Part shown: piece after piece, positions 1,124 to 64,000 of the stretch
How the letters are laid out: the number at the start of each line of letters is the position of its first letter
How positions within the stretch are numbered: position 1 is the stretch's first letter
Origin: Ceratothoa steindachneri
Lineage: Eukaryota; Arthropoda; Malacostraca; Isopoda; Cymothoidae
Assembly (NCBI GenBank): GCA_963969495.1
Contig: OZ018337.1
Location: 84,852,777-84,916,776, forward strand
Reading direction: 5' to 3'
DNA: 64,000 nt
The notes under the pieces: model-generated
The model's database searches: none
What the model saw: the letters and a program-made list of their open reading frames with translations, nothing else
What the model was told of the DNA's origin: nothing
Position numbers and translations under genes: made by a program

Positions 1124-1812
1124 ATCATTCGCCTGTTAATTTATTGTTGTTTCTTTTATATCTTCATTCTACTCTTTAGGCCCACTTAGAATTTCAACGC
1201 AGCCTATTAAGAAAAATAGTGCCGGAAATGAATATTTGTGTAATTAGGAACTCAAAAGCCGTCTTAAATTTGGAAATGCAAAGCCAAATTTGATACCATG
1301 ATCTGATGGATAATAATAAAATGGGGTCGCTAAATTCCCTTAAAGGATTTCAGCGTAGGGAAAAATTTTCCATATTTGATAATATGACTCTCATAATTCC
1401 TTGTTCAAATGTACCTCGAGAGTTGTGAAGATGTCAGAACGAATAAAAATATGTTGTTCTTAGAAAGGCCATGGCTAATTTTCATCTTCAAGGAATATGT
1501 ATATTAAATCAAAAGAGGAAAATTTTTAGGGAAGAATAACAAGTTTACTAAGTTTTGTTACCCATGGGGTCCAAGTTTCATGGAGAAAGGTGTATGTATT
1601 AAGGAGGAATTACCCATTTTTAAAGACTAATCTCTTAAAGACCATAGAAATAAATATAGTGTTAGAATTCATTCTTTACTTCTTTTCTATATATTATACG
1701 TACGATTTCACTCTATGTTTAATGATAGTTCCTATAAATTGGTGGAAGAGATTTTGATCATCTATTCACCTGAAATTTCCCAAATTTCCCCCTAGATCAG
1801 TAGCAGAATCAA

Positions 1813-2058
1813 TCACTCTATTATCACTTTCTGTCGTTTCTTGATCTCGTATCCATCTCTTTCGCAACTAACAAAACTTTTATACAGCTTTGAATGTCTA
1901 TCAATCATAAAAGTTTTATTAAAGAATAACTTATGGACTATATGTAAAGGTCCTATGCACAAATTGACCATCACTCTTGCTATTACTTGGAAGCAATCAT
2001 TGGAAGAATTAAAAGCGTTCAAATTCTCGCTAGGAGTCGAGGAGGATGAGGAGATCCC
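1813..2058 (-). CDS. Unidentified ORF remnant (left copy)
   Basis: Open frame of about 81 codons after a stop, with no ATG at its start, ending in a basic tail. It is preserved in both arms. Serine-rich at the beginning, followed by a mixed hydrophobic region. I do not recognise the family. It could be a fragment of a decayed transposon ORF or chance. Confidence 0.25.
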   Translation of the reverse strand, partial: GISSSSSTPSENLNAFNSSNDCFQVIARVMVNLCIGPLHIVHKLFFNKTFMIDRHSKLYKSFVSCERDGYEIKKRQKVIIE

Positions 2059-2212
2059 TCAAGCATTAACTCTAGCGAAGCTAATCAAATCGAGTCAACT
2101 GCGATTTCCTTATATGTCACTTTCCTTCAGGAAATCTATATCTTAGAACAGCTAGTACTTGGTAAGACTAGAAATGAAGTAAGGAGCTTTTTTGAATTTA
2201 TGACTATTTAAG

Positions 2213-2262
2213 AACGCGTTCGGCAACTAGTTTCGGTCATTACCCAAATTTGCTTCGTCTGG
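2213..2262 (-). other. Hairpin/CGAAAC-type transposon terminus (left)
   Basis: On the minus strand this reads CCAGACGAAGC, a short spacer, then GACCGAAACTAGTTG. Blocks of the form GACGAA...CGAAAC are typical near the ends of Penelope-like retroelements. No Penelope coding region is visible nearby, so this would be a fragment. The identification rests on the motif alone. Confidence 0.3.
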
Positions 2263-2633
2263 AGTCCTCGTTACCCCATAACTAAAATATTGCTTCATCT
2301 GAGATTTTTCAGTTGAAAGAGTAGTGAAACCATTTAGTTAATTTCTTCAAAGAAATAATAATTTTTATCCACTTTAATACAGCTGTAAGATAGTTGATGG
2401 TAATTAATTAAATAATAAACAAAAATATTAAAGTAATACACTACTCTCCAAAAATTTTATTTGAAACAAAACACCCACAAAGACCTTAGTCCCCATAATT
2501 TCGTCAAGACGTGGCGTTTTTGAGGTCAGGACTGATCATAATAAATTTGACATCACCGAACACAACGTCTGAGTCTTCCACAAATTCTCCCAAGGTTGGG
2601 AAAGTATATATTTTTATTTGTTCAGCCTTCTTG

Positions 2634-3862
2634 AGCTACAGCTTAATTTTTGGGTTGAATTCAGTGATTTTACACCTGCTGAGATGATGTCAATTTGTTT
2701 CCCTTGCAGTTCCTTGTTCCGAGAATTCCTAAACTCGAAGATATCGACCAAGTAAGTAAAAAGTACAGGCCATTTCGAATCTCCAAATGCTGTCCAAGAC
2801 CTTTTTTTTCAAGAAGAAAGCTCTCAATTTCGTCTTTCAGAATCCATACTAGTTTAAGAACATTTCTAAGGGATAGCCAACTAGCCTCTGAATGCAACAA
2901 GATGGTAGAAAATTGAGCCTACAAACCTTCACAGAAGTCTCGGAATAGTCGGGAGCTCAATTCATCCGCTCTTATAAAATCTTTTACTTTAATCTCCTGA
3001 TTCAACACCTCTTCAAGTTACGACTCAAGCCATTGCACAACCAAAGCTTGGCGATTAAACATAAGGTGACTATCATTATATTTAATTCTGTTTTTTTCAC
3101 GAGCGCAACCAAACCATTTAAGCATTCGAGCATTGCCGGAGCTCCATCCGTTAAATATCTCACACAATTATCCCATTCCAAGCCAACTTTGGCAAGATTG
3201 AAAAACGAATTCACTTTTTCAAAGACATCCACTCCGCGAGTTCCTAGTTCAAGAGAAGCGCTCAGTAGCATTTCTTTCTCGATAGTTCCTTCACCCCTGC
3301 ATCTGTCATATACCATCAGCTGAGCTTCGCAACTTGTATCAGTTGTCTTATCCAACTGAAGGGCGAAATCTTCACTTGTTTTAATTACAGACATTATTTG
3401 ATTTCGGATGTTCTCGACCATCATAGAAATTCGATCTTTCACACTTTTGGTGGATAAAGCAACTGCGTCAATTCCGTTGGATTGCTCCTTGCCACACATA
3501 GTTTCCACAAGTTTCAGCGGAACGGGCTTGACTAATTCCTTTGCGATTGCTTTGAGGCCTTTTACTTCTTGCAACTCTCCAAGCCACCTCAAGGCTTGCT
3601 TGTACTTCTGACCTTTGATCAAATGTACAATTCGTCATGTTTTTCAGCCGTTGCTTTGCCATTCCTAACTCCCAGTTCTCAAAATTAGCCAGTGGTTTTG
3701 GACGAGAAATCAGGATGAACATTGTCCAGGTGCTTTTTCAACTAAAATCTTTTCAAGGACTCAACCCGAAGTACCATCTTACACACAACACCTTGTGACT
3801 TCTGTTGTTCTCGATCACTTATTTCCGTGAACTCATATTTCAGAAAACTCCGCTTGATACAT
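2634..3862 (-). pseudogene. hAT-family transposase with BED finger (left copy, broken)
   Basis: Mirror of 61262-62490, with the same frameshifts and stops. The longest open part (3002-3622, 206 codons) holds the hAT catalytic-domain signatures LQLDKTTDTS and TDGAPAML. One residue differs from the right copy (LAKVG here, LPKVG there). Its antisense ORFs are shadows. Confidence 0.85.
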
Positions 3863-5663: not shown

Positions 5664-6384
5664 GACGATTATTATAGTTTTTGATTTGGTTCTAAGTCAC
5701 TTGCGATGGAATTTTGTCCAACTTTTCTTTGTAAAACTTTCCTATTTGGTCGGTGTTGTGTTGCCTCTTGCATAGACGGGGGCCTTCAGCTCATGACATA
5801 AAATATCTCACTAGTTAATGTCAGATAACTACGATATTCATTACAATATATTTATTCTAGCTTCATTTAATTAGAATGAAAACCTTCTCGATGTGTATTT
5901 GTGGGTTTAGTCATTTTGAAAGAACCATCTTCTTCCTTGGTCATACTTGTGAGCAGCACTCCTTAAATAATCTTAAAGAACCTCCTCTGTAGTATTCTTT
6001 ATTCCTCCTTGCTTTAAAGTGATGACTTTTGAACACCGACTGTTGCACAGAAATTGACCGAAAAGATAATAAATCCACCTCCATGTTTTACTGTGGAAAC
6101 GACGTTTTTTATTTGAGAGTTGTTTCCTTACTATTACGCAAAACATACAGGACATTATTTGCACTAAAGAACTTAATCTTTATTTTATCAGACCATAAAA
6201 AAGAGGTAAAAATCTAATGTATTCTTCAAATGATCATTGGCGTACTTCAGATGGGCATTTAAATGAATGTTTTTTAATGAAGGTGTCTTTCTGCAACGAC
6301 GCCCAAGCAGTTTGGCTTTATGCATCGTATTGTCGACTGTTCCACCTTATTTTAGTCCTTCCTCGAATAAATGATCATTTACCT
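5664..6384 (-). pseudogene. Tc1-like transposase remnant (left copy)
   Basis: Mirror of 58740-59460 with the same disruptions. Fragments of the Tc1 transposase catalytic region can be read across several frames. The 62-63 codon ORFs here are pieces or shadows of it. Confidence 0.7.
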
Positions 6385-8033: not shown

Positions 8034-9623
8034 CAGTAATAATAATAATAATAAATTTCTTATAATGCGCTCTTCGAGGCCAGAGGCCTTCGAGGAGCGC
8101 ACGTTTGGTTGTGGACAAAATCAGGTGGGTGAGTAGGCAATCCTGAACAGATGTATTTTTAAGCGTCGCTTGAAAATGCTAAGTGAGGCAGCAGATCTAA
8201 TTTCGGCTGGAAGAGCATTCCAAAGCTTGGGGGCACAGCCTGAGAAGTTGCGGTCGCTCATTGAGCAGAGGGACGAGCGAGGATTATTCAGTAGAGGAGC
8301 ATGAGATTACCGAAGGCCCCGAGGGACGATATGTAATGAAAGAGCGTAGTAAATGTAGGTTGGGGACTTTTGGTGAATGACCTTGAAAGTCGAGAAGAAC
8401 CTTGGGATAAGATTGATATCTGACAAGGGCTTAGAAGGAGAGAAGCGAGAGCGACTGAGCAGTAATCGGGACACGTAGTTCTGGACTAGCTAAAGGGGAA
8501 GTAGAGAGGAAGATGGTAGAATTACAAGAAGAGAGTTACAGTAATCAAGGGGAAAGGCAATGAAGGCGTGGACAGCAGTATCAAGACTTTGGCGATCGAA
8601 GTGAAAGCGAATGTGGGAGAAGTTACGGAGGAAACAAACGGCAGATTTACTAATATTGTGGATGTGGGGCTTGAAGGAGAGATGCTCATTAAACACAATG
8701 CCCAAATTTCTAACAGAGTCAGAGAAATCGACAGAGTTTCCACTCAGAGGGAGGAAGTAAAAAAGTACTTTAACGTTGTCTACTAGAGCGAGGGTACTAA
8801 ACAGAAGAACTTCAGGTTTAGAGTGTTTAAATTTGAAGAAGTTTACCGAGAGCCAGTCCGAAATAGTAGAATAGGCATATAGGAGGTCACAGATTGAGTT
8901 GGCATTGGTCGAGTGGTAAGTGGAACCAAAGATTGGAGTGTCATCGACATAGAGCTGGAAGGATAGACCGAGATTAAGTAAGAGGAAGCTAAGAGGGTAT
9001 AAGTCGATTAGAAAGAGGTGACAGCCGAGGACAGATTCTTGAGGGACACCAAAGCGAATGGGAGTGGGGTCAAAGGACACATTGTTACTCACTACAGATT
9101 GAGTGCGAGACGAAAGGTAAGAGCAAACCCAGTCAAGCAAGACGGAATGGTCAATAGTATCAAAGGCAGCGGAGAGGTCAGGTAGAATGAGGATGGAGGC
9201 AGAAGATCGGTCAGTTGCTCTAGGTAAGCAATCAGTAACATTGAGTAAAGCGATTTTGATAGAGTACCCAGCTTTAAAACCTGATTGGTAAGTCGTATCA
9301 ATATTACAGGCAACGATGTAGGAATTAATGCGCGAAACAACTACTCTCTCAAGGACCTTAGAGAGGAAGGGAAGTTGAGAGATCGGGCGATAGCGAGCTG
9401 GGCGGAAGGGTTAAGCTTTGGCAAGAAAGAAATCACTTTCGCGTCTGTTCGATCGACCCCAGAAACCCCTAGTGATATCATTCAGAGGAAACAAACATTT
9501 ATTTCCAAGGAAAGAGAAAAGAGAAATTGAAATTGCCTTCTTGGTCTTGGCATCATGGGATTTAATTCCTTTTCCTTCATCTGCTCTGAACTTCACCATT
9601 TGAAAGAAGCAATTACTGAACAT
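8034..9623 (-). mobile_element. LINE (CR1/L2-like) reverse transcriptase fragment, left copy
   Basis: 5'-truncated non-LTR retrotransposon. The frame holds RYRPISQLP, LSKVLERVV, the motif A region AAFDTIDH, GVPQESVLG (normally GVPQGS) and the YVDD box, then a stop, then the C-terminal WNALPAEIRSA. It shares the right copy's in-frame TAG but also has its own TAA at 8307-8309, where the right copy reads TCA. Over the 216-codon ORF (8490-9140) 14 residues differ from the right copy, against one in 566 for the RT-RNase H ORF elsewhere in the arms. Confidence 0.85.
8067..8100 (-). repeat. LINE 3' terminal hairpin (left)
   Basis: Imperfect palindrome gcgctc...gagcgc with an inner GGCC...GGCC pair, immediately upstream (on the minus strand) of the ATT-rich tail. 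Mirrored at 57024-57057. Probably the recognition structure for reverse transcription. Confidence 0.65.
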
Positions 9624-10457
9624 TTTAATGAAATACAGATTAGAAGTTACGGCATTCGTTAAGATTAGTGATGTTTATATAGCTTGTTATTCCTAAACCA
9701 CATGTGACTTAAAGGTTAAAGATTAAAATAAGAAATTATTAATCGATCGTGACACAGACCCTAAAATAAATGGACGGTTATAGACTTATATACTTTTTCC
9801 AATTTTAAATAATATAATTATTTTCTTTCTAATTAGTATTAGTTATATTGTTATCGATGTCACTAAAAAAAAATTAATTTCATTCCTACTAATGGCCGTG
9901 TATTCAGTCACATCGTAGGAAAATATTTAAAAATAAAACATCAACAGAGCTAATATTAAAGTTGGGGACAACATATTTTATGTTCTTACATGAGGGTTAC
10001 ATAGCAGTCACTTTCTCATGATAACTATTTTCCATCTCGCAGAGAAATCTGGAAAAAGCCTCGGCCAAAACTCACCACAGTCGAGCAAACTCAGTCCTGA
10101 AACAAGTCATTAGTTCATGACATTTATCTGTCTTCATTTCAAAGAATTCTCGCGCTTCTTAGAAATCCCGTTCGGGAAATCGACAAAAATGTATTTTTCC
10201 TGAGTCGTAAAACTACGATTTAATATAATGGTTATCTAAGGAACCCCATCTCTTTAGGTCAACAGACTATTTGTCTTGGTAAATATATAAGATAATGAGT
10301 TCGTAGTCTTCCCTGTTGAGCCTTATACACTGACGTGAAACAAGGAGGGCCATGAATCATATATGACATTTTGAACAGACTTGTTTCCATAAAAAATATA
10401 CATTATATATTTAATTATTTCGGCCTTTTCAAGTGATCAATTCGACGAGAGATTTTT
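9624..10457. other. No gene recognised; unusually diverged between arms
   Basis: AT-rich sequence upstream of the LINE. Compared with its mirror (54666-55500) it shows several substitutions per hundred bases up to about 10430, after which the arms become near-identical again. Confidence 0.6.
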
Positions 10458-10757
10458 TTAGCAAGTTGGACATTTCGTACTATTTACAAATTTCATATGT
10501 GCTGGGCAAATATTCTTGTTCCATTGGAAAAAAGAGGCACTGCACACCTTTTTGCATACGTTACACCTTGCCATCTGTCTAGAACTTGTTGGTTGTGAAT
10601 TAGCTGCTTGAAACTGGATTGGAATAAATCCTAAAAGCTCTCAGATTTTGAGAATCTCTCTCACAACGCTGTTTCTATACCGTTGAATCTGGAGAAACGT
10701 GTCATTTGTAATGAAAAGACTGAATGCTACCTTTTCTCTTGCTGAGAAAACTAAAGT
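10458..10757 (-). pseudogene. Cys-rich (zinc-binding type) ORF remnant, left copy
   Basis: Mirror of 54366-54665; same frame, same internal stop and same Cys/His pattern. Confidence 0.4.
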
Positions 10758-11296: not shown

Positions 11297-11326
11297 CCCT
11301 ATCCCCTCCCCCCTCCCCCTACCCCC
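11297..11326 (-). other. G-quadruplex-forming tract (left)
   Basis: C-rich on the plus strand; the minus strand carries five G-runs of three to six separated by one to three bases. Mirrored at 53797-53826. Confidence 0.65.
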
Positions 11327-11423: not shown

Positions 11424-11431
<8 letters not shown>

Positions 11432-12003: not shown

Positions 12004-12469
12004 TCAGTTGAAAGCTCCTTTCACAGAATAAGTGATTTTCTTGTCTTTTTTTTCAAATGTGTTGTTTTTAAAGTCTAGCTTGATATAATGATTTATTTTA
12101 CTTTTAAACTGTTGGTTTTTAAAATGATAGACTGAAATAGACATAAAACAAGGCACATGAGTTGAAAAGTAACTTTGAACTCTGAATGGATTGACGATAA
12201 TAATTTTATTCATTTTTACTAAGTTTTTACGAATATAAACATCATTCTGCAACCCTAGACATAGGCTATCGAAATAATACAGATTTTTTGTTAACAAAGA
12301 AAGTGGTCCAATGCTTACCAAATCTATGGCTTTTGTCCAGATTAATTATATAAGCTGCTGGCGGTTTTAAAGGTAAACATAGATCAGTATCTCTCGCAAA
12401 ATATTCATCCAAATCTCGTTCTGTAGTTTTCTCTCGTTCAAATAGTTCTTTAATTTCTACTGAATTCAT
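12004..12469 (-). pseudogene. Maverick adenain-like protease (left copy, frameshifted)
   Basis: Mirror of 52650-53115. Same frameshift near the middle. The residue before the catalytic-His dipeptide differs: GKHW here, GEHW on the right. Confidence 0.65.
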
Positions 12470-12783
12470 TTTATTAAGTAAAAACTAGTACGTTCCTAAA
12501 CTTATCTATCTCAATAACAGACTGAAACTCTGCATATATAACAAGGAAGACCGGTTCTATTAATAGAGATTTAAACTAAACTGATAATGTCCTCTGTTTT
12601 ATAGGATTGGAGCATTTTCCAACTCAAGTAGTACACTTATCCTGATTTAGGTTAATACGATAAATATTTTTACTTTTTATAAATTTTTCTTAGGTAATTT
12701 CAATACTCTGCCTAACTCCAATACACCCTATACCGTTATATAACGAGTAAAAAGTCCATGACGCAACTAGACCTGTATCGTCC

Positions 12784-13492: not shown

Positions 13493-13702
13493 TTATTTTT
13501 TACCCTTTTCCAACTGGTCTCTCAGAGCTTGCTTTGCAATCTTTCCATGCAGCATATTTCGAACAGTATCGAAACTGGCTGAAATAGCCTCCTTTCCTAG
13601 ATAACAAGCATCACTCTTTAGATATGGTGCTGTTTTTCTGAATAGGGAAGAGAAGAGAAATCGAAGACCACGTTCCCTCTGGGCTATTAATCCTTTAAAC
13701 AC
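13493..13702 (-). CDS. Small Maverick structural-type protein (left copy)
   Basis: Mirror of 51417-51626 and identical in sequence: 69 codons. Confidence 0.55.
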   Translation of the reverse strand: MFKGLIAQRERGLRFLFSSLFRKTAPYLKSDACYLGKEAISASFDTVRNMLHGKIAKQALRDQLEKGKK

Positions 13703-13865
13703 GAGTGGTCATTCTACATTTTTAATTATCGTTTAATGTTTACTCCTAATGTGTAGTTTTGTCATCACATGACCAACAAAGAATGGGGATCTTTCTCTTT
13801 TAACCGTTCTTATATAAATATAAATTGATCTCAAATTCCCAGAGCTTAGATTCAGATAGTGTGGA

Positions 13866-14958: not shown

Positions 14959-17064
14959 TCTGTGTTTCGGGTTTTGATCATTTTTCTGATGATCTTAACA
15001 AGAAAAACAAAGACAAGGAGGGTGAACTTAACGACAAGGTCTTAATAAACAGACGAAAGACAAAGGAGGAGGTCAAAGAACAGAAAGACCCAGAGGGGAA
15101 AGAAAAAACGGGAAAGGCTATATAAAATTAAATAAAACAAGGGGAAAAGGGAGGGCGGGAGAACGTCTTGACTCTTCAGGATCCAAAAAACGACCGTCCA
15201 GATGCTTGGGCGCGTCTGCTTATATAGTCACAGGCTGAGGCGCCCACAGCGTGCCTATGATGTTGCGTAGCTCCTGGACGGCTGATCTGCAGGATTGTGA
15301 GCGGACCTGACATAAGCCAGGCTTCTGGAAGCCCGTCTGAAGGAGGCCGTGAAAGCCACCAAAGCCCTGGTAGAGAAGGCAGCGAGGAAGCGCGTAGGGA
15401 GCTTCCCCCTTTTTAGGTTCCAGAGCGCACCCTGGTTGTCACCATAGAGTAAAGCACGGGGGGCGGCTATGAGGGCCAAGGTGAGGGCAAGCGACTCTAA
15501 TTCGAAAATAGAGGCGTCCCAGGACCGAACGTCCCAGGCGATGGCTTCACCCTGACACCACCAGGCAAAACCGGTGGTCGAGGCGTCAACGAAGATGCCC
15601 GGGCCTTTAGCCTTGGGGCAGGAGAGGGACGTCCATTTCTGGTGGATAAAGGGGGCCAGAGAGGCCAGGGTGCCGGGGTTCTCGCGGAAGGGCGGGAAGT
15701 GGCACAACTGCACCCAGCAATGGGGAAGGCGAAAGGGGGGTAACACGAAATTCAGGAGGCCGGCTAGCCGCTGCCAGCACTTGTCGCTGACCGGGGTAGT
15801 GGCCAGAGTACGGAGGGCGCGTTGGGTCTTGTCCTTGAGGGTGGTAGTGAGTTGAACCTTTCTTGACTTTAAATCGATGTTCCATCCCAAGTAGCTAAGT
15901 CGCTTACTTGGAACGGACACCGACTTACGCCAATTAACGTTGGCCGAACTTGTCTCGGCAAGTTTGAGGAATCTTCTGAGGGCTCTCCTGGTGCCCACAG
16001 CCAGGACATCATCCATATAAGTGAAAGCCTTGACACCGGCAGTGTGGGCCCACTGGTTAACAACCGTGGAGGTGACCATTTGCATAAGAAATGGTGAGCC
16101 ACTGAAGCCCATGGGCAGGCGCGTGAATCTGAAGGATTCCCGGCCCACGCGGAGGCCAAACCAAGGTCTGGCGGCGGGGTGGAGACGCAGGTGATAGAAA
16201 CCATCTTTAAGGTCGATCTTGACAGCCCAAATTCCTACCGTGTTGTCGAAAATGTTCCTGATGGAGGGGAGGGAGAAGGAGGGGGGCTCATAAGCCCACG
16301 AAGCAGGAGACATATCATATATTAGTCTTGCACATCCGTTGGGTTTAGCGACCCCAAAGATTCTGTGCGCGCACCTAATATGTCCACGCTCCAGAATGCC
16401 CGTGTCGAGGAGATGGTTGACCCACGGCATGTACGAAGATGACGAAGTCTTCCAGCATTTGTAGCCTTTGTTTAAGAAGACCTTGATTCCACTACCCACA
16501 TTGGCCTTGAGAAGGTGAGAGGAAGGCGAGGCAGAGTCAAAAGAGCCCGGAGGCTCAACGTCAAGGGGGACATCCCCATCCACTCTGGGGGTATCCTGCC
16601 GAAGGGGGTCATTGCAGGGGCTGACCCATTCCTGATCAGCGTTGCCCTCTTGAGGGTTGTTGTTGTTGTTATCGTTTCCTTCGGTGCGGTTGTTGTCATC
16701 ACCGTTGTCGTTACCCCTTAAAATGTCAGGGGGGCCGCTCGCAGGGTCTAGAAGGAAATCAGGACTAGGAGGGGGTCTCACATCTTCGGAAGTGGCGGCG
16801 GAACAGATGGAAGGCGAGGGAGGGGGGAAACTGACGACGGTAGGGACGGCGAGTCCTGGAAGGGGGATGCAACTAATAGTCCTGAGCGGGGGAGAAGGTG
16901 AACGTACCCTAAGGCTGCCCAGTTCCATAGCCGCAGACGTGAAGAAATCCCTCAAAGGGGCAGGTTCGACGACGCGTAGGGCGCCGAGTTCGGAAGCGGC
17001 TTCCTCGAAGAAGTTGGCGAGGAGACCATGGCGTCTTCTCGAAGGGAAGACAGGGGAAGGGACA
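14959..17064 (-). mobile_element. GC-rich RT-RNase H retroelement inserted in integrase (left copy)
   Basis: Mirror of 48053-50159. Clearly GC-richer than everything around it. The two flanks read as consecutive parts of one integrase gene. Confidence 0.75.
15255..16928 (-). CDS. RT-RNase H protein (left copy, intact ORF)
   Basis: Same protein as 48189-49862, 557 codons from the first ATG. The only difference is in RT motif A: this copy reads KIDLKDG, the usual form, where the right copy reads KIDHKDG. Antisense and alternative-frame ORFs over this region (for example 16657-17094 plus strand) are shadows of GC-rich codon use. Confidence 0.88.
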   Translation of the reverse strand: MELGSLRVRSPSPPLRTISCIPLPGLAVPTVVSFPPPSPSICSAATSEDVRPPPSPDFLLDPASGPPDILRGNDNGDDNNRTEGNDNNNNNPQEGNADQEWVSPCNDPLRQDTPRVDGDVPLDVEPPGSFDSASPSSHLLKANVGSGIKVFLNKGYKCWKTSSSSYMPWVNHLLDTGILERGHIRCAHRIFGVAKPNGCARLIYDMSPASWAYEPPSFSLPSIRNIFDNTVGIWAVKIDLKDGFYHLRLHPAARPWFGLRVGRESFRFTRLPMGFSGSPFLMQMVTSTVVNQWAHTAGVKAFTYMDDVLAVGTRRALRRFLKLAETSSANVNWRKSVSVPSKRLSYLGWNIDLKSRKVQLTTTLKDKTQRALRTLATTPVSDKCWQRLAGLLNFVLPPFRLPHCWVQLCHFPPFRENPGTLASLAPFIHQKWTSLSCPKAKGPGIFVDASTTGFAWWCQGEAIAWDVRSWDASIFELESLALTLALIAAPRALLYGDNQGALWNLKRGKLPTRFLAAFSTRALVAFTASFRRASRSLAYVRSAHNPADQPSRSYATS

Positions 17065-17572
17065 GTAACACATGGATGTATTTCCAGGTATTAATAAAAG
17101 TAAAGTATCTGAAAAGTCTTTCTTTTATTGTTCTTTGTACCCGCTCTACAAGACTAGCTTTGTTTAGAGAGTAAACATGATAAATGTTAATCTTACATTC
17201 GCTTAATAAACGTTTCATTATATTTCCTTTAAAATCTCCCTTATCATACGAACATATATAACCTGAAATCCATATGGATTCTTCAATGAGATTTCTTACA
17301 GCATTTGACACTACCTGGTCTGTCTTCTGCTTTCTAGAAATTACCCAGAGATATCTAGAATATATGTCAATTACAAAAAGTATGTAGCGTACACCATAAT
17401 TAAACCTTTCATATTTGGACATCACAGTTAACTCTAGTTACCGAATTTCTGTAGTGCCTTGAATCTTTTTCGAATGGAAAGCTTTCCACATCAGATCTTT
17501 TGGCAATCATTTTAACAGATTGGTGAAGTCGATTTACCCCAGCAAAAGATGTTGGTAGACTCGAAGATGCAT
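17065..17572 (-). pseudogene. Maverick integrase, 5' part (left copy)
   Basis: Mirror of 47545-48052. One residue differs in the catalytic-domain ORF (KINIYHV here, KIKIYHV on the right). Confidence 0.75.
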
Positions 17573-26800: not shown

Positions 26801-29366
26801 ACACTAAGTAATTCCCACCGATTATCAAAATATTCATAGATAATACCAAATACATGTTATTAACATTCATACTCATTTATAATATGATAAATTCTAAAGT
26901 TTGATTAAATATGTTGAATATATAATAAACCTTTGAGGCGTGCTTTAAAATTTTAGCCAAGGGTTTATGATGAAAATGTGAAAGAGGTTCATAAGTTCTC
27001 TATTAAAATATTACAGGAAATTTTGACATTTCAAACTCTTAATGTACTTGAAGATATAATCTGCCCTGTAATTGCTGCAGCAGTCAATAAATTTTCATAA
27101 GTTCCTATAATATTTAAAAAAAAAAATCGTATATTTTTTCATACCTTAAAAAATGAACGCTAAATAATCATCGAAAATTATCTTAAATATTTAAGATTCA
27201 AAACTAAATACTTTTTCACTTTGACATAAAATAACAGATTCTTAGGGAAAATACCAGGTATGATGCAAGATAGCGAGATTTCATTGTAGGAATCGTATGA
27301 TAATATTTTGAGGTCTTAGGACGATTTGAGGAAAAGATAAAATTGGGCCAAGTATAAATGCAAATTACAAGGACTCCTTTCAAACATGGTTGATTCAATC
27401 TGGGCTTATGTACATGCGGAACACTAGAGACTGCCCCCATCCCCTCCCACCTTCATCGCTTAGAGAAAAACACATGTGTTTATTTTGGGGAACTGGCGTC
27501 GGAGGTTTTATACCCAAATTCTCCTGACTCGCCACTGGTCACACTTCCCTTGGGATCAAAAACATCCTTGTCTTTTTGGAGAAGGACAAAGCTCAGTCCC
27601 GCCAATCTTTTTGCACATTTCCTTCTAATGGTGACGTTCCAGTGATTGGCATTCTTATTTAGGCGTCAATATCATTATCCAGATGGAATCTATCTTGCCC
27701 GAATGAAATGGGTGTCGAAAGTAAATAAATTTTGATTAATTACCAAACAAATTTAGGGATGTAGCGAAAAGATATTTGTCATTTCTTTATCCAGGGTAAA
27801 AAATATACATATCTCTCATTTTGCTTGAATCTTGTTTAAAATAATGAGAATTAATCATTTTAAATTTAACCCAAGTTTACCATTTAAACAACGAAACTTA
27901 CAAGAATTATTGTTGCCAGAATTAATGTGCATAAAATCACGAATTTTGTTGATCAATTAGATAAAGCTGAATTATTGCAAATTATATCCATTTATAAGAT
28001 AATAAAGTCTATATATAAGATAGCGAGTGTAGCAGGATGCCCTTTTTTATCACTCCATTCCTGACACAACTTTTGTCGCGATATGCTTTGTGGTACGTGA
28101 GGTACTTCTTTGATGAAGTAGGCTTTGATCTAAGAGTGGTAATTCGGTTGTTTTGTTCTTAATAAAGAGCTACTTCAACACGTAAGAATAACAAGGAAAC
28201 ACAGGAATTATCCCAAAATAAACATATATTTTTAAATTTAACACTTAACTATGACAAACAAATATTTATCACCTTTCTATCCTTGTCTCAATGCTAAACT
28301 CGACTATTCCGGTTGGCATCTAGGCCTATTACAACGACAGCGATGACAAAAATAAACAAATAGGCTACATGTAAACACACCAATTGCCGATAAGTATTTT
28401 TATCGCGACCTTATTTGATTAGCGATAAACATTAAATTGAAGTACTCTCGTCTACTAGCCAATATGACCGAGGTTTACGCAAAGTGGTTTCTACTCCCCT
28501 TAAAGCAGGAGGCGTACTAAACTCCTACTATCGTAATATGAATATAAATGTTCTTTCTAACTTACATGACAGGAGGGATTAGGGATTGCTGACAGTCACT
28601 TGACTACTAGACCAACAGAGCGAAACAGTACAATTGACTGGATGAATAAAAGAAATTGACGAAGACGTAAATGGATAAATAAATTAAAGGATTGACTGTC
28701 TGGTTAAAAGAACTTACCTAACAAGGATGTTTCATTAGATAGTTTGAAAATTAACTGCATTGTTGATAAGTCTAGCTAATAGCTATAAGTTTAAATTTAT
28801 AAGAGAGCGAGAACCTTTCAAATTAATGGTGTATATAATTAGCTTAAGAACATTGAAAGTGTTTGATTGTGTATATATCATTAACTGAAGTATTTTAACT
28901 GGAGCTACTTTATTTGTCTTGAGAATAGCGAAAGATTGTTTTAAGGCATTAGAAATGCTTCTTATGGGTCTCTGACGAAGCTGTTGAAGGCAAGAAAAAG
29001 ATTGCCATTTTAAACGTGACCACGAAGTTTTCTATTTCTCTTTTAGTCATTGCATCATTGTTTATATGCTGAATTAAATTTCACAAACTAATTTGATATT
29101 ATATCTATATACCCTTATAATTTCTAAGCATTGTTTGACATCTAAGATTAAAGTGTAATGAGAAATGATAAAACTTTCGAATGCATATGATGAATCCCTT
29201 CCTCTCTGCTCCCACTATTATAGTTACTTGATAGAGTCTTTCCGTACAATCCGCCTCGGGCAAACCATTTTCGGGACAGGTCGGTTCATGAAATTAAGTT
29301 AATTGAACTCTTATATCAAAATAAATGACGCAAATTTCACACATTATGCCGCATATTTGTAGAAAC
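23829..29366. other. No gene recognised (left arm, inner part)
   Basis: 5.5 kb of AT-rich arm sequence. The 74-codon ORF at 27216-27440 is preserved in both arms but has no recognisable domain and unremarkable composition. A TE-like block around 28020-28560 has longer non-AT stretches, but clean LTR ends could not be fixed. Confidence 0.55.
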
Positions 29367-30690
29367 TTGAGGGACATGTATTATAACACGCATTTTCATT
29401 ATTTTATTGAAAGAAATATCAGTTTCAGTAGAGATAAATTATTAGTAAATTATCTGATTGCATACAACTGCTTTCAAAATGTACACCGATTTTAATTTAA
29501 TAGATTTTGCAAGGCTTTCCCTAATTTTGTTGGACTTAAAGATTATGCTATGCAAAGTGCGGAGAATCGAAATAGAGCAAGTAGTCAAAGCATGACTTAA
29601 AGGCGGCGCTTTGCCGTTATGCTTTAATCGGCTTTGAAGGGGGCGAGTGCGATGAAAAAGTGGATTTGGTTCCTCTCATCTTAGAATTTATCTCTCCAGA
29701 CAACATCCAACAAGGCCTCGTTCAATAACGCTGCAACCTATTAGTCTCCGTGTTTATGAGTGGGGCGACGAATATGGATTATGCTTTCATTTCGTTTATC
29801 AAATTGAAAGTTCTGCAGTTGTGGATAAATTTGAAAGATGATAAACTATAAGGCATTTAGGAAGGGCTAAATTTCTGTTCTCAAAAATATTATCTTGATC
29901 TGAAATATAGAGATAATAAAGATTTTTTCCTACTTCTTGGCCCACCATGTTTATTATCTATACATGAATGATGATGTAAAGTTGTCCAATATAATTTCAA
30001 TCAGCAAAGCCACGCTTGAATGTAATTCAGTAGTCTTTGATCCTTGTCAATTTCAGATTAGCTTTGCACATAAACCTTTCAAGGAATAAATTTAAGACTC
30101 TTTCTTGCCACAATGTATATAATTCCATCGTTAAATAATAGGGAACTTTTCGCTTTCCCTAAAAATGACTTATCAAATATTGATGTTAAGAATTTCTGCT
30201 GCACAATATGCTTCAAATTAGAATAGACCACTCTCATATTATCGGTTTTAATGGTAAAAGAATAGTCGAAAATAGCCAAAAAGGACGATATTATTTTATT
30301 TAGTAATATATAAAATAATAAATAATGATATGCATACAGTTCCTGCTGGCAAAAATATACTAAAGGTAGAGTAAAGTGGTGTGGAGCAATTTAAGCTGCG
30401 ATATTACGTCTGCATTAAATCAGGTAAGGTTAATGACAGGTCTGCAAACTAAAGAGTTTTCCTCTTGGTGATAGTTCTCGCGCTTTGTTAAATTTATTGT
30501 TTATAATTCATTTGAACGCGTGAAATTCTATAAAATATTATTACAAATGAGAATTTGTGATTGTTTATTTATTCATTAATATAGAAGAAGAATCATAAAT
30601 GAGACAAGAACTAATCGCCCGCCTCAATTGCCTAACTTTCATTCAATGGATCACTAGATTTTAGACTCTCAAAAATTTATATTACATTTA
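29367..30690 (+). repeat. Diverged inner inverted repeat, left copy
   Basis: Continuing inward from the arm, this segment aligns in reverse complement with 35408-35751 (for 29367 to about 29690) and then with about 32880-33735. Visible anchor blocks include the stretches around 29505-29530, 29662-29675, 29700-29745 and 30434-30445. Between anchors the sequence differs by many substitutions and small indels. The first block keeps the same register as the arms (coordinate sum about 65101-65118), which suggests one duplication with uneven later homogenisation. Confidence 0.75.
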
Positions 30691-32879
30691 ATGAGATCAA
30701 TTTAGTGAAAATTTAATTCAAGAGAAAATAGAGAGTGAGGTAAAACCTACAACATTGGAAAATTTTAAAAAATGACAACTCTTCATAGAATAAGAGGTGG
30801 AGGACAGTCCGCCAACAGGAAGGTGGTCACATCGATCATTCGATTTCAAAAAGCTATTTTAATTTAGGTTTTTTCCACCTCAATATTTTACGCTGTGTTT
30901 AATAATTCACTACTTTTCGCTTTTAAACTTGTGATAGAGTAACATCTTCTCTCAATGGCAAGCAAATTAGGCACGATATTTTTCGATTTGTGAGTCTAAT
31001 TTTTGTACTGAAAAGATCATTGAAATTTGCCGTGATTATAAATCATACATGTGAGTTAATGTGTACTAAATATCATTTGTAACAGATCAGAATTATTAAG
31101 ATGTTGAAATTTAGTAAAAAGAATTTCTGCTCATTTTTCGTTTTTTCATTAATAATCGAAAAACTATCGTCATTTTAAAATGACTCGAAAGAGGAACTAG
31201 TAATGAATATAGGGGAATCGTCAATTAATTAATTCCTCCTAAAGTAAGAACAGAGCACAATATGAAAGAGGCTTTCTTTAGATTGTAAATTATATATAAA
31301 GTCTACATGAAGAGACGAGTGACATGTCTTTTTCCCTCTTTATTGCTCACCTATTTTTATTACTTTCAAAAAGGCAACTGCATGACAAAAAAATAACAAT
31401 TTATTTGAATCAAGTTATTCGAAACAGAGAAATGGAACACTATTTTATTCCTGGCCATAAGCATTTCATCATCATGCAATGGCCTCTAAAATAGGCAAAT
31501 AGTGTATCACGCTACCTATACATACCCAAGGTTGCTTCGCGTGGTTCTTGAAACACTCAATTCAACAATTTCATAAGGTCATCGTGAATGGAATCATTGA
31601 TGTATGTGAGACAGATCTTCTCAGAGATCAATAAGATAGAGGATCGGAGGGGAAAACTGTCATGGCTGGAAGATAATCGTAAAACTAGCCTAGATTGTTA
31701 ATTCAGAAATATACATTTATGTATTTTGTTTAAAATACGATTTTTCAATTTCTCTGACGTCCCGGCTTAGAATATTTACAAAAGGAAGACATTTTATATT
31801 TTGTAAGCAATATTAGTACTGGCTTGAACACATTTTTCTTAGTATTTCATCAAAGTAGAGAAAGTAAGGCAGTATATGGAAGGAAAAAATAATGAAGGTA
31901 GGACGGTAAGAAAATATCTCACAGAACATTTTCTTACAATCTCTTGTCTTTAAAGTTTAAAACGAGAAAATAAAGGAGTTTGCAACACCATTTATCAATG
32001 TAGAATGACTACAAAATGCCAGAGCAAAATGTGTAAAGAAAATGACCATTTCCAGATTGTTGAAAACCACGTCCAATATTCGAATTGAATGTATCTAACA
32101 GGTCAATAATGGTTACTATATAATGAAAAAAATGAGAATCCGCATGAGCAAAGATTAAACGAAAGAGATTGAAAGTTCTCAATGGTTTAATTGGCCATAA
32201 AATTCGAAAGATCAATTTAAAGAAGTTTGAATTAAATTGTAGTTTAAAGGATTTTCGAACTCGGTCTTAATGAGTCGTTTTATTAGAGTAAACAAGTGAA
32301 GACCAAGAAACCAACTCGGTAAGATATGAAAGTCGGTTCAAAAAATCGTCTATAGATTTGTTTGATACAAAAAAGAGGAAAGAAATGTAGATGAAAAAAA
32401 CGTAACGCATAAATCGAAATTATAGAAAGTATAGGCTATTAATCATCAATCGTCCAAATAATAAATAACTGATTCTCTATCATCATTTTGAATCAGTAAA
32501 TAATAGTTCCATGAATGATAAATTAATTTTCTCAGAAGCAATCAATATGGTAAATGTTTTTAATGATCCTTACTTTACAAAATTTAAATCATATTCAATA
32601 ATTTAAACATCTCACAAATATATGTTTATGAAGGTTTTTCCTGTTAAGAATATTTGCTTAAGTATTTAATTAAGAAGGATATCTACAAAAAATTGTGTTG
32701 TACAAATATTAATATATCTTATTTTGAATTAGACGTAATATTATACTACTAAATATGTCCACTGATGAATATGAAAACAGATATGAACAGTAAAATATCA
32801 GTCTGACCAGCAGAAATATAAATATGAATTATTTTACAATAATATTTTTATTTTAATATTAATAAATAGATACATAGAT
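30691..32879. other. Innermost spacer, nothing recognised
   Basis: AT-rich sequence with no ORF longer than 68 codons and no structure I can name. I compared its two halves by eye in reverse complement and found no convincing pairing. A distant relationship could be missed. Confidence 0.6.
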
Positions 32880-33735
32880 AAAAGATATTAGGTATCTTGA
32901 GCAGCGATTAAAAACAACAAAAACTCACGGCCCAATTCTCATTTCTCAATCTTGGTTAATTTTATATTGAAATGACTAAATGAACACTAACTTTTTCTCA
33001 GTCGCCATCATATTTCCTATAACTTGACGCGCTAAGACTAGCACCAAGAAATCTTTTTTCCAGACCTGTAATTAACCCGACCTGTTATAAAGCAGACGAA
33101 CTATGCTTGAAACCCGACACACCACGTCTACTGTGCCTTCAGTCTCTTTTTATACCTCAGAAACACTATGCTTATCCTTTGGTCAAAATTCATATATTAT
33201 TAAATAAACGCAATTCGTCAATTTGGGCTAATTTAAAAAATTATGTCACCAACAAAACCAATAAATTGAGAGTCGTCCGTTCTAATTTACAGAAAATTGA
33301 GCACCAATTGTTTCTTGGCATCTATATGTGAAGACTCATTTTAAGGAAAAATGAAACGTTCACTATTATTTAACGATCGCAATTATATACTTTGTAGCAA
33401 GATGCAGTCTTAATTTTTTCCCTTGAATTTGGTGAGACCAGAAGACGAATAAATTATATATAAGCGTAGTTTTGCTGTTTGAAATTATATTGAACATCCT
33501 TGTATAAATAATCAAAATGGACAGCTAATAAGTCTGAGGATATCTTAGTTAGCCTTAACTTATTATTATCTCTCTATTTCAGATCCAGATAAATATTTTT
33601 GAGAACTGAAATTTAGCTATCAAAAATTGCCCTTCGTATACCATCTCTCGTCCCACCGCCAAACACGGAGACAATAGATTGCAGAATTATTGAACGAGGC
33701 CCTGTCAGACTTTTTCTGGACAGAGAAATTCATCC
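32880..33735 (-). repeat. Diverged inner inverted repeat, right copy (inner part)
   Basis: This aligns in reverse complement with about 29690-30690 (coordinate sum near 63500). The best-preserved blocks are around 33059-33070, 33260-33300, 33567-33610 and 33660-33735. The ORF at 33107-33331 overlaps it; its C-terminal third resembles the middle of the opposite-strand ORF at 30079-30279. I do not recognise a protein family, and both ORFs may be shadows of a noncoding repeat. Confidence 0.7.
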
Positions 33736-35407
33736 TTCAGATCCGGAGCACCATTAAAATTTACCTAATTAAGATTATATCGGTCATTGCCGATCAGTTT
33801 TAAGTAAAATTCTCCGAAATAAGATGTGATGCCCAAACAAATTGGATACCATATCACCGTGATCAGGGGAGGACAGTTCATGGCAAAGAGGAGCAAATGA
33901 AACAGTGTGATCTGTTCTAGCTCTAGACATCAAACCTCTCTTAATTTGAACTCATCTGACAGGTAAGCATTTGATTTTATTCTTACCTCGAGCAGGTGGT
34001 ATTATTTTCTTTTTCACTATTATAAGTCTGTGTTATCAATATACAATATTATTCTCTTTTCGCGCTATGATCTTCACTAATATGCCTTTACTATAAGTTG
34101 TCCTTCTTTTTGGCTGTCTGTAACCACCCTTAGTCACCTACCCGATAAAAAGAATTAAATCTCGGAAAGTCGATAATTTCATCGAGACTAACCCATGTTT
34201 TTTTTCCAAAAAAATCATTTTCAAACAAAGAAGTGACACAGAATTCTCTGCTTTCTAAATATTTTATGAGAATATCATGAAATAGTAGTCAAATTAATAG
34301 ATTTTTAAAGTGTTAAGGCAATATATCCTTAATGATCCCAAAACAAGTGAATGAGGCACACGTCATACAAGGACGCTTATTAACATTTTTTATGTATCTG
34401 AGTTATCATACCCATGTGGGTATAGGACACTAATGAGAGGATTCAATTAGCTTGCATGCACATATAAAGTGAAAAAATATATCAACAATAAAAATCAATG
34501 TTGATATTAAACAAATTGAAACAGAATTGTCATAAACGAAATAAAAGAGAAAATTACCATCAAGCCGACACTGCAAAATTAAAATATTTCTCGAAATGAC
34601 CTCAAGAGTTGAGGGTCGGAAGATAAAAGAAAAAAATTATATTATCTGAGAGACATCAAGTGTTGTTTACCTTAATTAGCTTCAGTTGAAAACGCTTCTA
34701 ACAAACGAAGATAATATTAGATCAGAATTCCCCACAAAAGAAGTGTTATCTGTGGTAGAAATACTAAAGCAAATAACACTCATAATACCAGGCAGAGAGA
34801 ACGTTTTATCCTGTATCTTCATCTAAATCCAGAATGATTACCGCCCTTGTTCACCCTTTTATGGGTCTAACCTCGCGTGAAAAAGATAGTGAGAGATTAA
34901 AACGAGTTGCAAAAGATAACCCGAGAAAGCGAAACACCTTCTATCAGCTATTTTTTTATTAATTGGGTGAGTATTTGAACAATTTAGTTAAATAAATCCT
35001 TCTCCTATATTATTGTTTATTAATCGATTTATAGAATTAATTTTAAAGCCAAAGTTCTCTTAGAGCTTAATTAAAAAAAATAATTTTCATATTTAGGAGT
35101 AGATCATTGATCGTCCACAATTGAAATTTACTCCCATTTTAGGGATAAATTCATCGCATTAATTGTAGAAGAGGCGAAAGTAATTTAAAGGACGTAATTA
35201 AAACACCAATACAATGAGACGTACCAATATCGTAGAGGAACCGGCATCAGAATGGCAGCGCTTCATTTCCCGACCATAATAGAAACTATTACGAAAACCT
35301 ATTAGCTCACATCTTCTCATTTATTTTTATTATCACTAAGTATTGCAATAAGCACAAATCGTCCACCCATTAATCACCACCTACTTCATTGACCTATGTC
35401 ACTACTT
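33736..35407. other. Segment present only on the right side of the spacer
   Basis: This lies between the two parts of the right diverged repeat, whose left partners are contiguous near 29685. It is therefore an insertion on the right or a deletion on the left. I see no terminal inverted repeats, convincing target-site duplication or substantial ORF, so I do not assign it to an element class. The breakpoints are accurate to perhaps 10-20 bases. Confidence 0.6.
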
Positions 35408-35751
35408 ACATAATCTCCTCAAGTAATAGGATCCAAATCACACTCTTCATTGCTGTTGCCGCCTTCAAAACCGATTACGGGAAGCACCGCGCTTAAATAT
35501 CACTACTGGCACTGCGGGCGCCGTTAAGGCAGACTTCGAATCCCGATCACGCTCACTCTATTACTAATCTCGGGACTTTGCAAGTCCCATTATCTCTAAG
35601 GAAGGCCTTGCAAGATTTATTAAACTAAAATTGGCGCACATTTGGAAAACACGTCCATGCAGTCAGATTATGTAATAAAAATTACTCTTTAATGAAACTG
35701 ATATTTCTTTTAATAATATTTAAAATGGGTGTTATAATTCATGTATCTCAC
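35408..35751 (-). repeat. Diverged inner inverted repeat, right copy (outer part)
   Basis: This aligns in reverse complement with 29367 to about 29690 and abuts the near-identical arm at 35752. Shared blocks include 35429-35440, 35462-35480 and 35602-35630. The switch from near-identity to heavy divergence at 35751/35752 occurs without a register shift. Confidence 0.75.
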
Positions 35752-45117: not shown

Positions 45118-45862
45118 CGCCCCGGTCGGCAAGCTAAACTAAATGCTAGAACTGAAGGCCAAACCCATGCTGGCCCACTCGTGATTGACGAAGCTTGTTC
45201 ACTGCTATGGTGAATTTTGCAGAAATTTCCTTCGACTTGTGCCTACCAGCTATAGTCGATGGAATTGAGGTCTGTCGAATGCAGCGGCCAAAAAGTCCCT
45301 AGAGCATAAAATTTTTTGGTTTGACCCCAACTACTCTTGCACTGGCTTAGCTGTGTAAGTCAATGGACCGTCCGGTTGAAAGACGTATTTTTCCTTCTTT
45401 GTCATCAGTTCCTCTAAGGGCATGACTTCCGTTGCCAATATGTCTCCGTAAACAACAGCAAACCACACCACTGGCATCTTCTCGCTATTCTATACTACGA
45501 CTCCTAGCTTGCTAATGGATGGTGGCCCGTATCAGACCTTGTTGACATGATGTCTGATGCTTAGCGGCCAAAAGTGCTTCAAGCATGATAAGTTTATGTT
45601 TGACCCCAACTACTCTTGCACTGGCTTGGCTGTGTAAGTCAATAGACCGTCCTGTTGAAATACGTATTTTTCCTTCTTTTTCATCAGTTTCTCCAAGGGC
45701 ATGACTTCCGTTGCCAATATGGCTCCGTAAACAACAGCAAACCACACCGCTGGCATATTCTCGCCATTCTAAGCTACGTCTCCTTGTTTGTTCATGGATG
45801 GTGGGCACTTGGTCGTTGACCCGTAACGGACTTCGTTGGCATGTTGGATGATGCTTAGCAGG
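45118..45862 (-). pseudogene. Mariner transposase fragments in tandem (right copy)
   Basis: On the minus strand, each of two imperfect tandem units encodes KYVFQxDGxLTYTAKPVQE followed by a stop and LGSN, the mariner catalytic block containing the second Asp. The downstream unit goes on through HSTDLNSIDYSW, the PDLNP-type block, and NHEWASMG near the C-terminus. Multiple stops and frame changes. It abuts the truncated 5' side of the Maverick ATPase and runs on the opposite strand. Confidence 0.68.
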
Positions 45863-61261: not shown

Positions 61262-62490
61262 ATGTATCAAGCGGAGTTTTCTGAAATATGAGTTCACGGA
61301 AATAAGTGATCGAGAACAACAGAAGTCACAAGGTGTTGTGTGTAAGATGGTACTTCGGGTTGAGTCCTTGAAAAAATTTTAGTTGAAAAAGCACCTGGAC
61401 AATGTTCATCCTGATTTCTCGTCCAAAACCACTGGCTAATTTTGAGAACTGGGAGTTAGGAATGGCAAAGCAACGGCTGAAAAACATGACGAATTGTACA
61501 TTTGATCAAAGGTCAGAAGTACAAGCAAGCCTTGAGGTGGCTTGGAGAGTTGCAAGAAGTAAAAGGCCTCAAAGCAATCGCAAAGGAATTAGTCAAGCCC
61601 GTTCCGCTGAAACTTGTGGAAACTATGTGTGGCAAGGAGCAATCCAACGGAATTGACGCAGTTGCTTTATCCACCAAAAGTGTGAAAGATCGAATTTCTA
61701 TGATGGTCGAGAACATCCGAAATCAAATAATGTCTGTAATTAAAACAAGTGAAGATTTCGCCCTTCAGTTGGATAAGACAACTGATACAAGTTGCGAAGC
61801 TCAGCTGATGGTATATGACAGATGCAGGGGTGAAGGAACTATCGAGAAAGAAATGCTACTGAGCGCTTCTCTTGAACTAGGAACTCGCGGAGTGGATGTC
61901 TTTGAAAAAGTGAATTCGTTTTTCAATCTTCCCAAAGTTGGCTTGGAATGGGATAATTGTGTGAGATATTTAACGGATGGAGCTCCGGCAATGCTCGAAT
62001 GCTTAAATGGTTTGGTTGCGCTCGTGAAAAAAACAGAATTAAATATAATGATAGTCACCTTATGTTTAATCGCCAAGCTTTGGTTGTGCAATGGCTTGAG
62101 TCGTAACTTGAAGAGGTGTTGAATCAGGAGATTAAAGTAAAAGATTTTATAAGAGCGGATGAATTGAGCTCCCGACTATTCCGAGACTTCTGTGAAGGTT
62201 TGTAGGCTCAATTTTCTACCATCTTGTTGCATTCAGAGGCTAGTTGGCTATCCCTTAGAAATGTTCTTAAACTAGTATGGATTCTGAAAGACGAAATTGA
62301 GAGCTTTCTTCTTGAAAAAAAAGGTCTTGGACAGCATTTGGAGATTCGAAATGGCCTGTACTTTTTACTTACTTGGTCGATATCTTCGAATTTAGGAATT
62401 CTCGGAACAAGGAACTGCAAGGGAAACAAATTGACATCATCTCAGCAGGTGTAAAATCACTGAATTCAACCCAAAAATTAAGCTGTAGCT
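61262..62490 (+). pseudogene. hAT-family transposase with BED finger (right copy, broken)
   Basis: A cut-and-paste transposase of the hAT superfamily, closest in style to the ZBED5/FAM200 group. A degenerate BED zinc finger lies near 61320-61420 (GVVC followed by LKKHLDNVHPDF, giving the terminal H-x4-H; one expected cysteine is lost). An RVARSKRPQS block follows near 61550, then a frameshift into the 206-codon ORF at 61502-62122 with LQLDKTTDTS and TDGAPAML, which carry the first two catalytic Asp positions. After its stop, a further segment at 62224-62454 (HSEASWLS, then DEIESFL) matches the C-terminal half of the family. Several stops and frameshifts make it non-functional. I did not find matching terminal inverted repeats. 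Confidence 0.87.
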
Positions 62491-62861
62491 CAAGAAGGCT
62501 GAACAAATAAAAATATATACTTTCCCAACCTTGGGAGAATTTGTGGAAGACTCAGACGTTGTGTTCGGTGATGTCAAATTTATTATGATCAGTCCTGACC
62601 TCAAAAACGCCACGTCTTGACGAAATTATGGGGACTAAGGTCTTTGTGGGTGTTTTGTTTCAAATAAAATTTTTGGAGAGTAGTGTATTACTTTAATATT
62701 TTTGTTTATTATTTAATTAATTACCATCAACTATCTTACAGCTGTATTAAAGTGGATAAAAATTATTATTTCTTTGAAGAAATTAACTAAATGGTTGCAC
62801 TACTCTTTCAACTGAAAAATCTCAGATGAAGCAATATTTTAGTTATGGGGTAACGAGGACT

Positions 62862-62911
62862 CCAGACGAAGCAAATTTGGGTAATGACCGAAACTAGTTG
62901 CCGAACGCGTT
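62862..62911 (+). other. Hairpin/CGAAAC-type transposon terminus (right)
   Basis: Mirror of 2213-2262, containing GACGAAGC and GACCGAAAC. See that entry for the basis. The RT-RNase H element at 48053-50159 ends in a comparable hairpin-plus-CGAAAC block. Confidence 0.3.
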
Positions 62912-63065
62912 CTTAAATAGTCATAAATTCAAAAAAGCTCCTTACTTCATTTCTAGTCTTACCAAGTACTAGCTGTTCTAAGATATAGATTTCCTGAAGG
63001 AAAGTGACATATAAGGAAATCGCAGTTGACTCGATTTGATTAGCTTCGCTAGAGTTAATGCTTGA

Positions 63066-63311
63066 GGGATCTCCTCATCCTCCTCGACTCCTAGCGAGAA
63101 TTTGAACGCTTTTAATTCTTCCAATGATTGCTTCCAAGTAATAGCAAGAGTGATGGTCAATTTGTGCATAGGACCTTTACATATAGTCCATAAGTTATTC
63201 TTTAATAAAACTTTTATGATTGATAGACATTCAAAGCTGTATAAAAGTTTTGTTAGTTGCGAAAGAGATGGATACGAGATCAAGAAACGACAGAAAGTGA
63301 TAATAGAGTGA
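63066..63311 (+). CDS. Unidentified ORF remnant (right copy)
   Basis: Mirror of 1813-2058 with the same predicted residues from the serine run to the stop. The frame opens just after a TGA and has no ATG early on. It lies about 600 bases downstream of the hAT transposase and on the same strand, but no link between them is shown. Function unknown. Confidence 0.25.
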   Translation, partial: GISSSSSTPSENLNAFNSSNDCFQVIARVMVNLCIGPLHIVHKLFFNKTFMIDRHSKLYKSFVSCERDGYEIKKRQKVIIE

Positions 63312-64000
63312 TTGATTCTGCTACTGATCTAGGGGGAAATTTGGGAAATTTCAGGTGAATAGATGATCAAAATCTCTTCCACCAATTTATAGGAACTATC
63401 ATTAAACATAGAGTGAAATCGTACGTATAATATATAGAAAAGAAGTAAAGAATGAATTCTAACACTATATTTATTTCTATGGTCTTTAAGAGATTAGTCT
63501 TTAAAAATGGGTAATTCCTCCTTAATACATACACCTTTCTCCATGAAACTTGGACCCCATGGGTAACAAAACTTAGTAAACTTGTTATTCTTCCCTAAAA
63601 ATTTTCCTCTTTTGATTTAATATACATATTCCTTAAAGATGAAAATTAGCCATGGCCTTTCTAAGAACAACATATTTTTATTCGTTCTGACATCTTCACA
63701 ACTCTCGAGGTACATTTGAACAAGGAATTATGAGAGTCATATTATCAAATATGGAAAATTTTTCCCTACGCTGAAATCCTTTAAGGGAATTTAGCGACCC
63801 CATTTTATTATTATCCATCAGATCATGGTATCAAATTTGGCTTTGCATTTCCAAATTTAAGACGGCTTTTGAGTTCCTAATTACACAAATATTCATTTCC
63901 GGCACTATTTTTCTTAATAGGCTGCGTTGAAATTCTAAGTGGGCCTAAAGAGTAGAATGAAGATATAAAAGAAACAACAATAAATTAACAGGCGAATGAT

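Follow-up and report, generated by a model that had tools for sequence, protein, structure and literature searches.

A 64,000-nucleotide window of the isopod Ceratothoa steindachneri assembly (GCA_963969495.1, contig OZ018337.1, forward-strand positions 84,852,777 to 84,916,776) contains a near-perfect palindrome whose arms, at least 28.2 kb long, flank a spacer of 6,385 bp. This spacer is not plain unique DNA, as inverted homology runs on into it, in register with the arms, at 67–80% identity. The palindrome is likely to be a genuine chromosomal structure, and the molecule probably exists as assembled. Our preferred account, held tentatively, is that of a real palindrome in which one flank was recently copied when a strand folded back, or switched template, at an old inverted repeat.

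Self-BLAST aligned positions 1124-29523 with positions 35597-64000 in inverted orientation over 28,404 columns at 99.45% identity, with 146 mismatches (the reciprocal row counts 145), 7 gap openings and 10 gap bases that net to 4 bases. A first-pass annotation of the window had described just such a palindrome, with arms of at least 28 kb, only a few bases of net indel, mirror-paired open reading frames (ORFs) and a spacer of 6.4 kb, and each of these points was borne out. Large palindromes are recognized by inverted arms of more than 99% identity around a short spacer, and the 28.4 kb aligned here at 99.45% fall within this class. Four mirror ORF pairs were located, each on the minus strand on the left and the plus strand on the right (3002-3634/61490-62122, 8490-9410/55713-56633, 15255-17090/48027-49862 and 16952-17437/47680-48165), and the window is free of N. 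The right arm is cut off by the window end at 64000, with its outer end beyond view, and positions 1-1123 are therefore without a partner in view. In the register of the core alignment position 29366 pairs with 35752, which sets the distance between the near-perfect arms. The parts of the palindrome are as follows.

1124-29366, plus strand: left arm, near-perfect part; pairs with 35752-64000 and probably extends to the left of 1124, with its partner beyond the window.
35752-64000, minus strand: right arm, near-perfect part; ends with the window.
29367-29674, plus strand: decayed inner arm, left outer piece; pairs with 35428-35751.
35428-35751, minus strand: decayed inner arm, right outer piece; pairs with 29367-29674.
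29684-30483, plus strand: decayed inner arm, left inner piece; pairs with 33029-33731.
33029-33731, minus strand: decayed inner arm, right inner piece; pairs with 29684-30483.
33732-35427, no strand: right-only stretch of 1,696 bp; its left counterpart is 9 bp (29675-29683).
30484-33028, no strand: unpaired core loop of 2.5 kb; guanine-cytosine (GC) content 29%.
8115-10392, no strand: divergent island of the left arm; partner at about 54.7-57.0 kb; 67 mismatches (2.9%).

While the first-pass annotation was right to place two arms around a spacer, it overlooked the decayed continuation of the palindrome within it. A sensitive self-comparison paired 29380-29674 with 35428-35738 at 67% identity and 16% gaps, with one identical run of 18 bp (29410-29427) in this outer piece. 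The inner piece is made up of an outer part, in which 29684-29768 matches 33648-33731 at 80% identity (85 columns), and a main part, in which 29833-30483 matches 33029-33649 at 69% (659 columns, E 6.7e-88); when it was aligned with MAFFT, 521 of 718 ungapped columns were identical, a Jukes-Cantor divergence of 0.34. The core pieces are collinear with one another and with the outer arms, except at the right-only stretch, which is either a right-side insertion or a left-side deletion; no clear target duplication was seen at its ends. The inverted score of the spacer was 315 bits, as compared to at most 55.4 bits in 15 Markov-random spacers, and no further inverted repeat was significant within the loop, where the best score of 36.8 bits equaled the maximum of 15 Markov-random sequences. 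Self-matches were surveyed at E below 1e-5 with the low-complexity filter on and query ends up to 35,000. Among those listed, the only other inverted match left unexplained by the palindrome joins 513-823 to 31561-31873 in the core loop (310 bp, 71% alike) and is probably a dispersed repeat. Since such inverted repeats are rare among the listed matches, chance placement of one on the axis of the palindrome is not expected. A constrained coding pair was judged an unlikely source of the core repeat, since by eye the mirrored frames 30079-30390 and 33023-33331 resemble each other as DNA at least as much as they do as protein. With a divergence of 0.34 in the core and 0.00185 in the arms, the two compartments differ by about 185-fold. 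The decayed, in-register core indicates that the mirror axis long predates the most recent equalization of the arms, which makes a simple head-to-head misjoin unlikely.

The differences between the arms are unevenly distributed and fall into three tiers, with 67 mismatches in 8115-10392, 30 in 29367-29516 and 48 elsewhere. The main tier (48 mismatches in 25,958 bp, or 0.185%) looks to be of a single age. Its variance-to-mean ratio was 1.14, 1.25 and 1.00 in windows of 0.5, 1 and 2 kb (P 0.23, 0.23 and 0.58), its largest mismatch-free gap was 2,724 bp (P 0.23), and its scatter is indistinguishable from Poisson; the rate did not differ between the two sides of the island (17 versus 31 mismatches, P 0.19). 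Of a tract-like, patchy pattern there is one clear island, with Poisson-like scatter elsewhere. The island spans a long interspersed nuclear element (LINE; 40 mismatches in 1355 bp) together with 980 bp of non-LINE DNA (27 mismatches) at equal density (P 0.81). The idea that a different copy of the LINE had replaced the one in a single arm was rejected, as the ~980 bp beyond the 5′ end of the LINE are equally dense in changes, and the donor must therefore have held the whole segment. Within the reverse transcriptase (RT) frame of this LINE, 21 changes fell in residue-changing codons and 8 were silent, with 11, 8 and 10 at the three codon positions, and these changes look neutral. The third tier begins at a sharp step, where 1,408 bp with no mismatch (27959-29366) give way to the 30 mismatches of 29367-29516.

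The sequence itself shows the arms with their even 0.185% tier and their island, the sharp step at their inner ends, and an old core in register with them; on these observations rests the account we favor. The starting point would have been an old inverted repeat with arms of about 1.1 kb or more, about 70% alike, around a loop of 2.5 kb plus the 1.7 kb one-sided piece. Recently, a broken or stalled strand would have folded back, or switched template, between the two halves of this repeat, and one flank would have been copied outward for at least 28 kb to become the mirror of the other. Since this copying the arms would have accumulated the 0.185% of differences, and later a 2.3 kb block of one arm would have been overwritten from a 3% different copy, either an allele or a paralog of the whole segment. 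We infer both the single round of copying and the source of the island. An open 611-codon RT frame occupies the same site in both arms with only 2 differences between the copies, which indicates that the arms were equalized long after the halves of the core had split. Recent birth offers the simplest explanation of both the even tier and this shared young element, a lean rather than a proof. In a study of yeast whose telomeres were uncapped, rearrangements arose from inverted repeats as much as 25% divergent and 30 kb apart, through inverted dimers formed in long single-stranded DNA (PMC10164571). For a newly arisen palindrome of the human Y, 5 bp of microhomology could account for the junction (PMC6790999); the decayed outer piece of the present palindrome retains the identical run of 18 bp.

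Several points weigh against recent birth. The core is about 27-33% divergent, over the 25% limit given for single-stranded DNA in the yeast study, where instability in double-stranded DNA was described as lost at 75% homology (PMC10164571). Short identical runs must in that case have served. In addition, the GC content of the whole left arm, elements included (0.354), lies above that of the spacer (0.321), and the island needs a separate event. The test of evenness has low power with only 48 sites. In simulations of steady conversion, runs that ended with 36-60 mismatches were kept; each tract length had 300 runs, except for the 100 bp tracts, which had 150. A variance as low as the observed one was reached in 27-49% of cases with 100 bp tracts, 15-27% with 300 bp and 10-29% with 15 kb; with tracts of 1-5 kb, windows of 500 bp gave it in 12.7-16.7% of cases, those of 1 kb in 10.0-14.0% and those of 2 kb in 3.7-4.7%. 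As simulated conversion is sometimes as even as the main tier, evenness leans toward recent birth without proving it.

Arm-to-arm conversion in an old palindrome is a close second, with good precedent, and we regard it as a real possibility. Under this explanation, core and arms would have been fully identical when the palindrome arose, the part of the palindrome next to the spacer would have lost homology through indels and the 1.7 kb piece and decayed to ~70%, and the outer arms would have been repeatedly rehomogenized, with the latest round covering nearly their full length. As one of two alternatives, the first-pass annotation had suggested a true palindrome whose arms are held alike through conversion; the real palindrome is favored here, and conversion is possible, with the even tier leaning otherwise. 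That the decayed core shares its axis and register with the arms accords well with conversion, but the two divergences on one axis would also allow a core that predates the arms. Among 12 palindromes conserved on the primate X, there are five in which a portion of one species' spacer forms arm in the other, as one report states, citing earlier work (PMC8981503), and a Caenorhabditis inverted repeat found in three species is described with arms more than 95% alike within species and less than 80% between them (PMC1803023). For conversion in human P6, the inferred minimum tracts are given as 2,068 bp on average and more than 9 kb at most (PMC3723533). Tracts of 1-5 kb, however, seldom yield the evenness of the 0.185% tier, other tract lengths fitting better, and a 3% relic, ~16 mean ages old, is unexpected under a steady process. 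The lack of raised GC in arm DNA outside the GC-rich elements also counts against conversion. The left arm falls to 0.333 without the island and the RT element, and 20-29.4 kb stands at 0.319 and positions 1-1123 at 0.318; the arm values (0.319-0.333) amount to no GC rise over the spacer, which is itself a weak control. Some human Y palindromes likewise have no GC rise over their own spacers (PMC8981503), and GC does not decide the question of origin. The fuller claim of an ancient, gene-poor and transposon-filled palindrome, whose arms were kept alike while its core diverged by ~0.34 substitutions per site, appears somewhat doubtful.

Less probable still is an assembly fold produced by an inversion heterozygote. 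In this case the old repeat would flip the loop, each haplotype would carry one orientation, and an assembler working with reads shorter than the loop would have followed the left flank of haplotype 1, the loop and the left flank of haplotype 2, so that the arms are alleles. This would account for the sharp step within the inverted repeat and for an outer end that is not in view; the 0.185% would be heterozygosity, and the 3% island a block in which the haplotypes have diverged further. It would, however, require reads shorter than about 6.4 kb, and such reads could hardly separate two 28 kb copies with one difference per 540 bp and identical runs of up to 2.7 kb. The window contains no N, and if the reads were long the junctions would have read support. 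The proposal of two haplotypes joined head to head, made in the first-pass annotation, survives in this version, while its plain form is disfavored by the indel-rich, in-register inverted repeat at 67-80% identity. A junction at such identity is one that an assembler would not be expected to bridge, and an old inverted repeat within ~15 bp of the arm ends on a shared axis would hardly lie there by chance. Head-to-head misjoins and fold-back reads (from a missed adapter or amplification chimera) do exist as artifacts, but a simple one is very improbable here, as neither predicts a 6.4 kb middle whose core is in register at 70% identity, and arms derived from one molecule would not show 145 substitutions, part of them clustered in an island.

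The coding content was surveyed in 126 stop-to-stop pieces from 1-35596, taken from among the 149 longest of 183. At E ≤0.01 in Pfam, RVT_1 was matched twice, DNA_pol_viral_C once (E 1.4e-4, slightly below the curated cut-off) and rve once, weakly. The first-pass description of arms filled with old transposons and lacking an obvious gene therefore stood in part, as Pfam supplied only two RT matches and two under cut-off. The coding features are listed below.

8057-9412, minus strand: dead, 5′-truncated LINE, with its RT frame at 8490-9410 (RVT_1 E 3.8e-18) and a mirror RT frame on the plus strand.
15255-17090, minus strand: open RT frame of 611 codons with an RNase H-like end (RVT_1 E 4.7e-16); mirror on the plus strand.
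16952-17437, minus strand: integrase-like fragment (rve E 0.0053, under the Pfam cut-off) that overlaps the RT frame; mirror on the plus strand.
3002-3634, minus strand: 210-codon frame; mirror on the plus strand with 1 difference.

The LINE, whose ends were set by eye, has a (TAA)n-like tail at about 8037-8057, and from its appearance we presume it to be CR1/L2-like; a PDB sequence search with its RT found no match, and no relatives were found in viral contigs (4 pattern matches). The 611-codon RT frame, which we take to be DIRS-like, matches PDB reverse transcriptases (best E 3.3e-9), and the element is GC-rich, with local GC up to 0.55 against a 32% background. It is probably the youngest element of the window. 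It overlaps the integrase-like frame, presumably Polinton/Maverick-like, and looks as though it had recently inserted into an element of greater age. No relatives of the RT frame were found in viral contigs (3 pattern matches) or genome contigs (31 pattern matches), nor any of the integrase-like piece in viral contigs (8 pattern matches). The 210-codon frame, which by eye we assume to be hAT-derived, had no Pfam match, and a PDB sequence search gave one match that is not meaningful (E 0.94). NCBIfam yielded no matches over the 126 pieces, and neither a tRNA search nor Rfam at gathering scores returned anything in the window. When ten pieces were compared with Pfam at E ≤1, four further matches, to hGDE_N, Adenylate_cycl, PDXDC1-like and PIF1 (E 0.03-0.08, far under cut-offs), were taken as chance. 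No host gene was recognized in the arms among the 126 pieces, from which small-exon or Pfam-less genes would escape, and as for a multi-copy arm gene, these pieces matched only RT, RNase H-like sequence and, weakly, integrase. Both arms carry a tandem duplication of ~300 bp that is 82-88% alike (19258-19566/19552-19844, mirror 45273-45859). The short minus-strand frames 12266-12484 and 13493-13708 look by eye like protease-like or other broken Polinton/Maverick pieces, with no meaningful Pfam support, and 10461-10640, directly right of the divergent island on the minus strand, is a short, cysteine-rich, zinc-ribbon-like frame. The observed/expected CpG ratio of the window is 0.77, a moderate depletion that, together with the kinds of transposon, suits an animal host.

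Large palindromes are often argued to persist since conversion repairs the genes in their arms. If real, a palindrome of this size with no recognizable gene and a decayed mirror core attached would allow birth to be separated from maintenance, pointing either to a divergent inverted repeat that seeded a lasting palindrome or to conversion with no obvious gene to protect. Should the ancient reading hold true, conversion would preserve a palindrome that has no gene to protect, and the core would document, like a fossil, how conversion withdrew outward from the spacer, while an assembly fold would be a useful warning about inversion heterozygotes.

Among known systems, the inverted triplication of origin-dependent inverted-repeat amplification (ODIRA) also has inverted repeats that seed its inverted junctions. 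A product of ODIRA should contain a third copy, with the middle one inverted, and the repeats should be short and closely spaced. Here the window, which breaks off within the right arm, shows only two copies, and 6.4 kb separate the switch points. Inverted-repeat fusion and fold-back palindromes and dicentrics in yeast, on which Mizuno (2009) and Paek (2009) reportedly worked, are a second parallel. They too have a spaced, divergent, pre-existing inverted repeat at their center (PMC10164571), while the present palindrome would be a retained, presumably germline structure with a repeat somewhat more divergent than the limit given there. The maintained inverted repeats of Caenorhabditis likewise have arms more alike than their age suggests and a faster-evolving spacer, but those described are pairs of genes whose intergenic arms are short (160 bp for the first one), and their age was shown by orthologues (PMC1803023). 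The ampliconic palindromes of sex chromosomes (human Y, primate X and willow W), where most palindromes of this sort are known, similarly have arms of tens of kb, more than 99% alike, around a spacer, and for willow W.P1 arms of 20 kb and a spacer of a few kb are given (PMC7023750). Unlike these, the palindrome described here, seen from sequence alone, has no recognized gene family in its arms, no GC rise outside GC-rich elements and a decayed continuation of the arms in its spacer. Structures of this kind are known, and it is the core that makes the present one unusual and informative.

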